Positions 2,989 to 6,540 of a stretch of 15,858 bases of DNA are shown one piece after another (the stretch's first letter is position 1; every line of letters starts with the position of its first letter). A program made the translations under genes and the position numbers. The notes under the pieces were generated by a model. That model was not told the DNA's origin. It did not search any database and saw only the letters and a list, made by a program, of their open reading frames with translations. The DNA is from Candidatus Desantisbacteria bacterium CG1_02_38_46 (GTDB lineage: Bacteria; Desantisbacteria; UBA1551; UBA1559): positions 1 to 15,858 of the forward strand of contig MNUO01000011.1 in the NCBI GenBank assembly GCA_001871015.1. Reading direction: 5' to 3'.

Positions 2989-3012
2989 CGCAGGCTAAAG
3001 CCCGCGGCTACC
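2989..3012 (-). repeat. Palindromic repeat copy covering the asd stop codon
   Basis: On the minus strand this reads GTAGCC, then stem GCGGGC, loop TTTA, stem GCCTGC (one G-T pair). It belongs to the same family as the arrays at 3458-3579 and 4126-4232. The TAG stop of asd (2995-2997) lies in the loop and second stem, and the last residues of Asd (SRGL) are encoded by the repeat. Confidence 0.75.
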
Positions 3013-4107
3013 GATAAGCAGTTCGGCGATCTGGACAGCGTTAAGGGCTGCACCTTTGCGCAGATTATCAGAAACTACCCAGAGGTTTAATCCATGCGGA
3101 ATTGATTTATCCTCCCGAATGCGTCCCACATAAACAGCATCTTTACCAGTAGCATCAATCGGGAAGGGATATTTTGAATTTGCAGGGTCATCCACTATTA
3201 CCACCCCTGGTGCTTTTGAAAGAATTTTTTTCGCCTCATCCGCAGTTAATTTTTCTTCAGTTTCAATGTTTACTGCTTCTGAATGGCTGATAAAGACAGG
3301 CACTCGGACGCAAGTTGCGGTTATGCGCATCTGCTGTTCATTCATAATTTTTCTTGTTTCCTGCACCATTTTGATTTCTTCCTTTGTATAGCCATTCTCC
3401 TCAAATTTATCAATGTGAGGAAAGAGATTGAAAGCAATCTGGTGGGGAAGAACTTTTGTAGTGGTCGAGTTTACTCGACTTGAAGTAGAGTAAACTCTGC
3501 CACTACTAGCAGACCAAGGTCTGCCACTACCAGCAGAGTAAACTCTGCCACTACCTTGCAGGGCAATCCCTGCAGCTACAATTGATTTCGTTTCATTGAT
3601 TAATTGTTCAACTGCTTCTTTACCCCAGCCAGAAACAGATTGATAAGTAGAAACTACAATCCTTTTGATTCTTACCTCAAGGTGTAGAGGATATATTGCC
3701 ACAACCATCTGAATAGTTGAACAATTTGGATTTGCAATTATACCTTTATGCTTAAATGCAGCATCCGGATTTACTTCAGGAACTACAAGAGGCACCTCTC
3801 TGTCCATCCTGAAAGCATTGCTATTGTCAATTACGACCGCCCCGGATTTTGCTGCAATAGGTGAGAATTGTTTACTCAATTCTGCTCCAATTGAAAAAAG
3901 GGCATAATCTATTCCCTTAAAGGAATTTTTATTTAGAATCTCAACTTTTACGTCTTTGCCTTTAAATTTTAACTTTTTGCCGACTGACCGTTCAGAAGCA
4001 AGAAGTTTTATATTTTTAACAGGGAATTTACGCCGCTCAAGAGTTCTCATCATTTCCTGCCCGACAAGTCCGGTTGCTCCGACAACTGCTACATTGTATT
4101 TTTTCAT
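2995..4107 (-). CDS. asd: Aspartate-semialdehyde dehydrogenase with a repeat-derived insert
   Basis: Reduces L-aspartyl-4-phosphate to aspartate-4-semialdehyde with NADPH, the branch point to lysine/diaminopimelate, threonine and methionine; cytoplasmic. The N-terminal Rossmann motif GATGLVG is at residues 10-16. The catalytic Cys is C129 in NPNCST, and the general-base His is probably H275 in ISHSEAVN. GAGGTG precedes the ATG at good spacing. At 370 residues it is about 30-40 longer than usual. The excess lies at residues about 177-217, an 8-residue repeat rich in Ser, Gly and Arg (GSGRVYSA, GSGRPWSA, SSGRVYST). It is encoded by five copies of a 24-bp palindromic repeat, and the conserved sequence resumes at KVLPHQIAFN. 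The C-terminal SRGL and the stop also come from a repeat copy. Last gene of the minus-strand cluster, downstream of leuB. Confidence 0.95.
   Translation of the reverse strand: MKKYNVAVVGATGLVGQEMMRTLERRKFPVKNIKLLASERSVGKKLKFKGKDVKVEILNKNSFKGIDYALFSIGAELSKQFSPIAAKSGAVVIDNSNAFRMDREVPLVVPEVNPDAAFKHKGIIANPNCSTIQMVVAIYPLHLEVRIKRIVVSTYQSVSGWGKEAVEQLINETKSIVAAGIALQGSGRVYSAGSGRPWSASSGRVYSTSSRVNSTTTKVLPHQIAFNLFPHIDKFEENGYTKEEIKMVQETRKIMNEQQMRITATCVRVPVFISHSEAVNIETEEKLTADEAKKILSKAPGVVIVDDPANSKYPFPIDATGKDAVYVGRIREDKSIPHGLNLWVVSDNLRKGAALNAVQIAELLIGSRGL
3458..3579 (-). repeat. Five tandem 24-bp palindromic repeats inside asd
   Basis: Units lie at 3458-3481, 3484-3506, 3507-3530, 3531-3554 and 3556-3579. 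In minus-strand reading most begin GTAGTGG (the last GTAGCTG), then a 6-bp stem, a TT-centred 4-base loop, the paired stem, then TA or AA. Stem pairs differ between units but remain complementary: GCAGAG/CTCTGC, GCAGAC/GTCTGC, GCAGGG/CCCTGC and GTCGAG/CTCGAC. The first unit is inverted, so 3458-3506 forms one larger inverted repeat from GTAGTGG to CCACTAC. A 24-bp unit keeps the reading frame, so asd stays open. Confidence 0.9.
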
Positions 4108-4125: not shown

Positions 4126-4232
4126 TTAGTCCCGATGAATCGGGACCACTACATAATGATCAGCAGAGTAAACTCTGCCACTACTAGCAGAGCAAGCTCT
4201 GCCACTACTAGCAGAGTAAGATCTGCCACTAC
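4126..4232 (-). repeat. Palindromic repeat array between leuB and asd
   Basis: Four units of the same family fill the leuB-asd gap: 4126-4152 (stem GTCCCGAT/ATCGGGAC), 4161-4184 (GCAGAG/CTCTGC), 4185-4208 (same stem, loop CTTG) and 4209-4232 (GCAGAT/CTCTGC, one mismatch). The last three are tandem without spacers, so this is not a CRISPR array. The TAG in GTAGTGG of the 4209-4232 unit is the stop codon of leuB. Folding of the leuB-asd transcript here could affect RNA stability or asd translation; that is inference. Confidence 0.9.
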
Positions 4233-5287
4233 ATAATGAATTTGCAGATTAAGTCGCCGACCTGGCTTGTGCTCATACCCATTTTTCCTGCACCAAGGTC
4301 TTTAATATGGCCTTCGCTAATTGTTTTGATAACTGCGTTTTCAACTGTTTGTGCAGCTTTTTCTTCACCTAAAGTGTCCAGCATCATTGCGCCAGCGCAG
4401 ATTGTCGCGAGCGGATTTATCATATTTTTCCCTGCATATTTCGGTGCTGAGCCGTGAATTGGTTCAAACATTGAAATGCCCTCAGGGTTTAGGTTTGCAC
4501 CAGCAGCAATTCCCATACCACCCTGAATTACAGCTCCAAGGTCAGTTATGATGTCACCAAACATATTACAGGTAACGATTACATCAAACCATTCAGGATT
4601 TTTGACCATCCACATACAGGTGGCATCTACGAAAGCGTAATCCTTCTGGATTTCAGGATATTCCTCGCCTACTTCTGTAAAAGTTCTTCTCCACAGGTCA
4701 TGGGCGTAGGTGAGAACATTTGCCTTATCGCACAGTGTAAGTTTATTTTTTTTGTTTCTTTTTTTTACGAGTGTATATGCGTATTGTATTACTCTCTCAA
4801 CTCCTTTGCGCGTATTTATATCTTCCTGTATTGCAACTTCATCTTTTGTTCCTTTTTTTAAAAATCCTCCTGCACCGCAATATGCACCCTCTGTATTTTC
4901 ACGCACGACTATAAAATCAATATCCTCAGGCCCTTTATCCTTTAATGGTGTCCAGACACCGGGATAAAGTTTTATGGGACGAAGATTTATGTACTGGTCA
5001 AGTGAAAAACGCAGTTTGAGCAGGAGTCCCTTTTCAAGTATGCCGGGTTCTACCCTGGGGTCACCCACAGCACCCAGATAAATAGCGTCCATTTTCTTAA
5101 GTTCCCCGATTGCACTATCTGGTAATATTTCACCTGTTTTCAGATATCTTTGCGCACCAAAGTCGTAATGGATAAAGTTAAATTTTATATTAAATTTCTC
5201 ACTTACCACATTCAGAACCTTTAATCCTTCCCGAATGATTTCTGGTCCTACACCATCTCCTGGAATCACTGCAATTTCATAATTCAC
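4229..5287 (-). CDS. leuB: 3-isopropylmalate dehydrogenase
   Basis: Oxidatively decarboxylates 3-isopropylmalate with NAD in leucine synthesis; cytoplasmic. The 352 residues show the family core: PGDGVGPE at 9-16; substrate arginines R93, R103 and R129 in [12 protein letters not shown] and VVRENTEG; catalytic Y136 and K188 (DKANVL); metal-binding D221, D245 and D249 (FGDIITDLG); and the nucleotide loop [10 protein letters not shown] at 278-287. The GTG start at 5287 overlaps the previous gene's TGA and follows AAAGGAG, so translation is probably coupled. The stop TAG lies in the first bases of a palindromic repeat unit. The family also contains tartrate and homoisocitrate dehydrogenases. LeuB is preferred on length and motifs, but no leuA, leuC or leuD is in view, so substrate is less certain than family. 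Confidence 0.85.
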
Positions 5288-6516: not shown

Positions 6517-6540
6517 AAGTAGAGTAAACTCTACCACTAC
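6517..6540 (-). repeat. Palindromic repeat copy between thiC and the prepilin gene
   Basis: In minus-strand reading: GTAGTG, stem GTAGAG, loop TTTA, stem CTCTAC, TT. Compared with the GCAGAG/CTCTGC copies, both partners of one pair have changed, so the stem is kept. It lies three bases after the thiC stop and a few bases before the GGGGGG that precedes the prepilin reading frame. Confidence 0.85.

Follow-up and report, generated by a model that had tools for sequence, protein, structure and literature searches.

Five hairpins with an unpaired GTAG foot lie in frame within asd, the aspartate-semialdehyde dehydrogenase gene of Candidatus Desantisbacteria bacterium CG1_02_38_46, in a window (the whole stretch of DNA that was analysed) of 15,858 nucleotides. 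Asd is no special case, being one of more than 20 affected genes in this genome. Very probably, a mobile GTAG-tagged REP family inserted widely and selection kept the in-frame copies in permissive loops. The observations behind this reading are the anatomy, copy number and stem covariation of the element and its placement in frame in conserved genes, together with its frame bias, its depletion from coding sequence and, for Asd, a loop position seen in an AlphaFold2 model. The type of element is known, as are intragenic copies; the unusual points are how many core genes carry it, its preference for one frame, and that unrelated repeats occupy the same loops in the relative G001.

The repeat array within Asd

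The host gene of the array (positions 2995–4107, minus strand) encodes 370 amino acids in an open frame, and in a profile scan its product scored 496 bits against NCBIfam NF011456 (cut-off 223) and 464 bits against asd_B (TIGR01296; cut-off 324). The earlier note on this DNA had described five palindromic units inserted in frame at 3458–3579, between two intact conserved flanks and in a variable loop of the protein, and all of this is borne out. In the reading direction of asd, unit 1 (3557–3579, minus strand; GTAGCTGCAGGGATTGCCCTGCA) has a different stem and is read VAAGIALQ. It is followed, on the same strand, by unit 2 (3531–3554; GTAGTGGCAGAGTTTACTCTGC), read SGRVYSA, unit 3 (3507–3530; GTAGTGGCAGACCTTGGTCTGC), which has a compensated stem and is read SGRPWSA, and unit 4 (3483–3506; GTAGTGGCAGAGTTTACTCTAC), read SGRVYST. 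Unit 5 (3458–3480, plus strand; GTAGTGGTCGAGTTTACTCGAC) is inverted, and its reading on the asd strand, SSRVNSTTT, completes the insert peptide, in which the predicted tryptic peptides include VYSAGSGRPWSASSGR and VYSTSSR. The central three units are in tandem with a period of 24 bp (spacings 24 and 24), and it is this period that the earlier note had taken for a 24-bp palindromic unit; the element itself is not symmetric, having 22 nt and an unpaired GTAG. An 8-residue repeat running through all five units was likewise only partly right: three copies read so, whereas unit 1 has another stem and unit 5 is inverted.

On one side of the insert a helix ends near residue 178; on the other stands the motif KVLPHQIAFN. 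A comparison of 54 sequences gave a span from TYQSVSG to PHQIAFN of 74 aa here and of 41–43 aa in 50 others, for a net insert of 33 aa over the usual loop length instead of the roughly 40 residues first supposed. The other three long loops span 49, 58 and 60 aa; the longest of these belongs to G001 (19 aa over the norm) and the 58-aa loop, whose insert is unrelated, to a genome of the Omnitrophota. In the Asd of Omnitrophota NC_groundwater_710 (L086, 2001–3044), the loop at the same place is 17 residues longer and contains SSEFRVHAKLETRNPKLGT, which resembles another dispersed repeat.

Modelling of the fold, one of the checks proposed at the outset, was carried out with AlphaFold2 (80 sequences) and gave a mean pLDDT of 91.4. 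Residues 186–211 have a pLDDT below 50 and no secondary structure, while the core exceeds 90 and the remaining fold is intact; the model thus predicts a disordered loop for the insert, on an enzyme that is otherwise intact. The best match of the model among solved structures (Foldseek) is 2gz3, the Streptococcus pneumoniae ASADH, with a TM score of 0.87.

Further units lie nearby in the window, all on the minus strand. A GTAG-footed hairpin at the 3′ end of asd (2989–3011; GTAGCCGCGGGCTTTAGCCTGCG) codes for the final residues GSRGL and the stop codon. Upstream of asd, an intergenic hairpin (4127–4152; GTAGTGGTCCCGATTCATCGGGACTA) has the same foot and a third stem type, and a head-to-tail array of three units (4161–4232) lies between asd and a leuB-like gene (4229–5287), whose TAG stop is supplied by the GTAG of the unit at 4209–4232. 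A lone unit (6518–6540; GTAGTGGTAGAGTTTACTCTAC) lies between genes.

Anatomy of the element

The true unit is seen in 34 singletons, in which it has 22 nt, GTAGTGG-CAGAGTTTACTCTGC, the second part being the 15-nt remainder of the hairpin; it consists of an unpaired GTAG(TG) foot, a 7-bp stem and a TT loop. Only GTAGTGG and the hairpin are common to all 34; their flanks are not conserved, no CTAC complement was found downstream of the hairpin in any of them, and the next 7 nt do not match CCACTAC. Stem variants were gathered by the foot and loop letters alone, with no requirement for pairing, which yielded 159 copies of 34 distinct kinds. Among these 34 variants the stem is paired in 84% of cells, double-sided changes occupy 33 cells compared with 10.3 in shuffles (a value that none of 500 shuffles reached), and covariation scores 0.416, while slid partners reach 0.076 at most. 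Covariation is present in six of the seven stem pairs, and the main stems are GCAGAGT/ACTCTGC, GTCGAGT/ACTCGAC, GCAGACC/GGTCTGC and GCAGAGC/GCTCTGC. A second stem type, GTAGTGGCACGATTCATCGCAC, is read as the 8-residue repeat CSGTIHRT, three times in tandem, in HypD (L159, 14875–16083), and gives single SGAIHRT copies in IspG and TrpG (L150 and L161).

Consensus matches number 73 + 74 (about 147) in 1.73 Mb of this genome, with none for a reversed control, and the RNA fold has a z score of −5.6; chance is therefore ruled out. No Rfam family was found at the site of the array. The assembly is metagenome-like and fragmented, and the growth of arrays in 24-bp steps probably involves slippage, but an assembly artefact, or plain replication slippage without mobile DNA, is a very improbable source of the repeats as a whole, given that they occupy dozens of loci with differing flanks and unit mixtures, occur as singletons and are also found in unrelated genomes.

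Placement in genes

A census of copies and their frames, another check proposed at the outset, covered 387 kb of stretches picked for holding copies, so that the genes in it are a biased selection. It found 189 units, of which 93 are intergenic, 34 overlap gene edges and 62 lie within 25 called genes; two of the 25, LeuD and IspD, are probably artefacts of an upstream start site, and MiaB, whose unit is more diverged, figured in the first census only. The most heavily loaded genes are IspE (seven units), a NuoL-like subunit (six), ThiL and TsaB (five each), and others include TopA, DprA, IspG, UvrA, DapF, HypD, CCA-transferase, TrpE, TrpG, LeuC, ThrC, AroA-Cmk, TrmD and Mfd, names given without a profile test being a reading of the translated sequence. 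Nine of the ten interrupted proteins that were scanned (Asd, TopA, IspE, MiaB, IspG, DapF, ThiL, TsaB and TrpG) exceed a curated NCBIfam cut-off, in many cases through a profile match that breaks in two where the insert lies; the tenth, the NuoL-like protein, does not. Across the 387 kb, units are about 12-fold rarer within genes (0.22 per kb in gene interiors vs. 2.65 per kb between genes). Two further protein repeats were noticed: CCA-transferase (L159, 18738–19847) contains two to three copies of another 8-residue repeat, AESRLSGR, which do not derive from the GTAGTGG element, and MurD (L155, 9969–11534) has an N-terminal block of three NKQSLFLAKEMSIKCQ copies before the normal start of the protein.

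Read on its own strand, every stem type leaves two frames open, and these are used very unequally: the polar frame (SGRVYSA; mean hydropathy −0.3) in 18 genes and the hydrophobic frame (VVAEFTLL; +2.05) in three (P = 0.0015). Of the three exceptions, one is an N-terminal signal-like stretch and another a probable start artefact. At L160 (222–1271), a unit read in the hydrophobic frame falls in the hydrophobic part of an N-terminus that resembles a signal sequence. The frame preference bears on whether the inserts reach the protein at all. Strong mRNA hairpins could in principle allow them to be skipped or removed in expression, by RNA excision or ribosome bypassing; the frame and the peptide would then be irrelevant, yet the polar frame prevails with both frames open, and the inserts add whole codons to conserved genes, so that skipping is scarcely credible.

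Spacings between neighbours of the same orientation are divisible by three in 13 of 13 intragenic cases and 17 of 42 others (P = 9e-5), an excess that is partly ascertainment, as the gene caller misses broken open reading frames. Outside genes the spacings are often 25, 26, 28 or 38, which disposes of the suggestion that a 24-bp unit, as a multiple of three, is what lets the element spread through coding sequence. In 11 open reading frames, that of the leuB-like gene in the window among them, the GTAG foot supplies a TAG stop.

The same loops in a relative, and distant genomes

The sole near relative compared, G001, is of the same order as this genome, and its Asd is about 80% identical. Its Asd loop has a different insert, GGGACTGTCCC...CCCCGATGGACATCGGGG...GGGACTGTCCC, built of short palindromes. 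The earlier note had named, as evidence against its interpretation, close relatives that all carry an unrelated insert of equal length here; the insert of G001 is indeed different, but it is shorter, and it points to a permissive loop and is not counter-evidence to in-frame insertion. Other repeat-like peptides (e.g., SPLTPLYERGDGGG, SLPANLAGR, LKIVNCKLKIVN and IRRPTSD) occupy the matching loops of G001 orthologues of ThiL (in three places), TsaB, TrpG, IspG, CCA-transferase, TrmD, LeuC, UvrA and DprA, where the loop alignments are approximate and the dispersed-repeat nature of the peptides was judged by eye. No repeat peptide is present at the matching loops of the G001 MiaB, IspE and NuoL-like proteins. 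In ThrC, the element sits at the identical codon in both genomes, with stems GAGTTTACTC and GAGCTTGCTC; either the insertion is old and common to both and has since undergone compensatory change, or the site was hit twice.

Among 385 other genomes the element is present in seven, with at least 10 matches in three (G001, G087 and G114). In distant genomes its stems again show compensated changes (CAAAG/CTTTG, CCGAG/CTCGG and CTGAG/CTCAG). In G087 and G114, which hold the most copies among the distant genomes, essentially all of the copies read lay outside genes and no general intragenic habit was seen; it is therefore this order, and not just the element, that accounts for the intragenic habit. 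GTAG-footed hairpins were not in excess at the named Asd loci. The distant genome G048 has GTAGGGGC-footed hairpins near asd (L029, 2745–3033), a related-looking REP type.

Could the inserts be under selection for some function, whether in the mRNA, where hairpins might adjust translation or stability, or in the protein, where the peptides might modify the enzymes? Stem pairing is maintained through compensation, and at the shared ThrC codon, which gives VY in one genome and AC in the other, the hairpin is preserved in both. Moreover, many of the copies outside gene centres are probably transcribed, because nearly all sit between co-directional genes (94 unidirectional, two divergent and no convergent pairs). 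Nevertheless, upkeep of the stem is equally expected from a transposase that requires a hairpin or from fresh insertion, the affected genes are unrelated in function, G001 has other repeats or none in the corresponding loops, and coding copies are 12-fold depleted, so that selection for function seems distinctly unlikely. A broader proposal, unlikely though conceivable, is that this lineage tolerates or uses repeat-encoded peptides in its core enzymes, with unrelated repeat families recolonising the same loops as a standing source of new segments.

Proposed origin and significance

The anatomy, copy number and dispersal of the element argue for mobile REPs. Under the favoured reading, the family would be non-autonomous mobile DNA that proliferated in this lineage and whose insertion took little account of genes. 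Selection would then have purged copies that broke a frame or struck a protein core; the survivors would be those that kept the frame and fell in variable loops, the frame being mostly the one that yields a short polar peptide, and local tandem copying may afterwards have lengthened the inserts in Asd, IspE, ThiL, TsaB and the NuoL-like subunit. The inserts are presumably translated, and the peptide is likely to be neutral. By analogy with published GTAG REPs, the units may have been moved by a RAYT-type HUH transposase acting on a single-stranded hairpin with its GTAG foot. Three Y1_Tnp matches are present in this genome, and within 1.5 kb of RAYT-like or Y1 transposase genes of this genome and G001 no GTAG hairpins were found besides one case at a contig end. 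There (C53; L056, 1–500), a fragment of an IS200/IS605-type TnpA is accompanied by hairpins and, at about 350 bp, by two GTAG-footed hairpins with different stems. As the assembly is 88% complete and fragmented, the missing RAYT linkage leaves room for a transposase.

The very name of REPs implies a place outside genes. If dozens of copies are translated, they amount to a natural map of the loops in essential proteins that accept foreign sequence, touching the lysine, leucine, threonine, tryptophan, isoprenoid and thiamine pathways and tRNA modification, and the other repeats in the same loops of G001 provide a second, independent reading of this map. There is also a caution: where the proteins of uncultured bacteria show odd 8-residue repeats, mobile DNA and not function can be the reason.

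Comparison with known repeat systems

A literature search found no report on this lineage. MITEs have 70–300 bp and terminal inverted repeats of 15–30 bp, and identity with them was rejected because the present element has 22 nt and lacks terminal repeats. Rickettsia palindromic elements (RPE-1, RPE-4 and RPE-6) were rightly named as a parallel at the outset, being palindromic, in frame and found in many genes. Going by their descriptions, identity with them was rejected as well: RPE-4 and RPE-6 have a CGTC end and RPE-1 a longer body, whereas the present unit ends in GTAG and has 22 nt. RPE-4 and RPE-6 of Rickettsia conorii have been assigned to a sister CGTC superfamily (PMC3733652). Coding inverted repeats in the mitochondria of Nematomorpha (PMC6649704) are similar in that hairpins are kept within protein-coding genes; they are longer and their arms encode conserved residues, whereas the present elements are short dispersed loop insertions.

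The element was first thought to be a family of its own kind, but its sequence places it, in every feature compared apart from RAYT linkage, with the GTAG-tagged REP superfamily defined by Di Nocera, De Gregorio and Rocco (2013), which comprises 24 families (PMC3733652). These REPs have 20–40 nt with an unpaired terminal GTAG, a stem of 5–13 bp at its widest bounds and more usually given as 6–9 bp, and a loop of 2–20 nt, vary by alternative complementary stem bases and occur as singletons, inverted dimers and clusters, and their foot can supply TAG stop codons (PMC3733652). The present element likewise has GTAG unpaired at one end of a short palindrome (34 singletons), a 7-bp stem and a TT loop, which fits their TY, in a total of 22 nt, and exists in about 147 copies with covariation in six of seven pairs. 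It shares the TAG stops, and its tandem and inverted neighbours form dimers and clusters that are mostly extragenic with some intragenic (93/34/62 of 189). Intragenic GTAG copies have already been described in several species, with uvrA among the genes that carry them, and are most numerous in Opitutus terrae, with repair genes prominent; REP clusters coding for 43–82 aa are known from Thauera and R. conorii, and in a single case, recB of two Xanthomonas species, different REPs lie at about one site (PMC3733652). The present element differs in its GTAGTGG foot and stem set, found in an uncultured lineage and assigned to the superfamily by anatomy, and in having no linked RAYT among the genes examined. 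It differs, too, in that its intragenic copies lie mostly in biosynthetic and other core genes, and in that, in the sister genome G001, more than one repeat family has settled in these loops.
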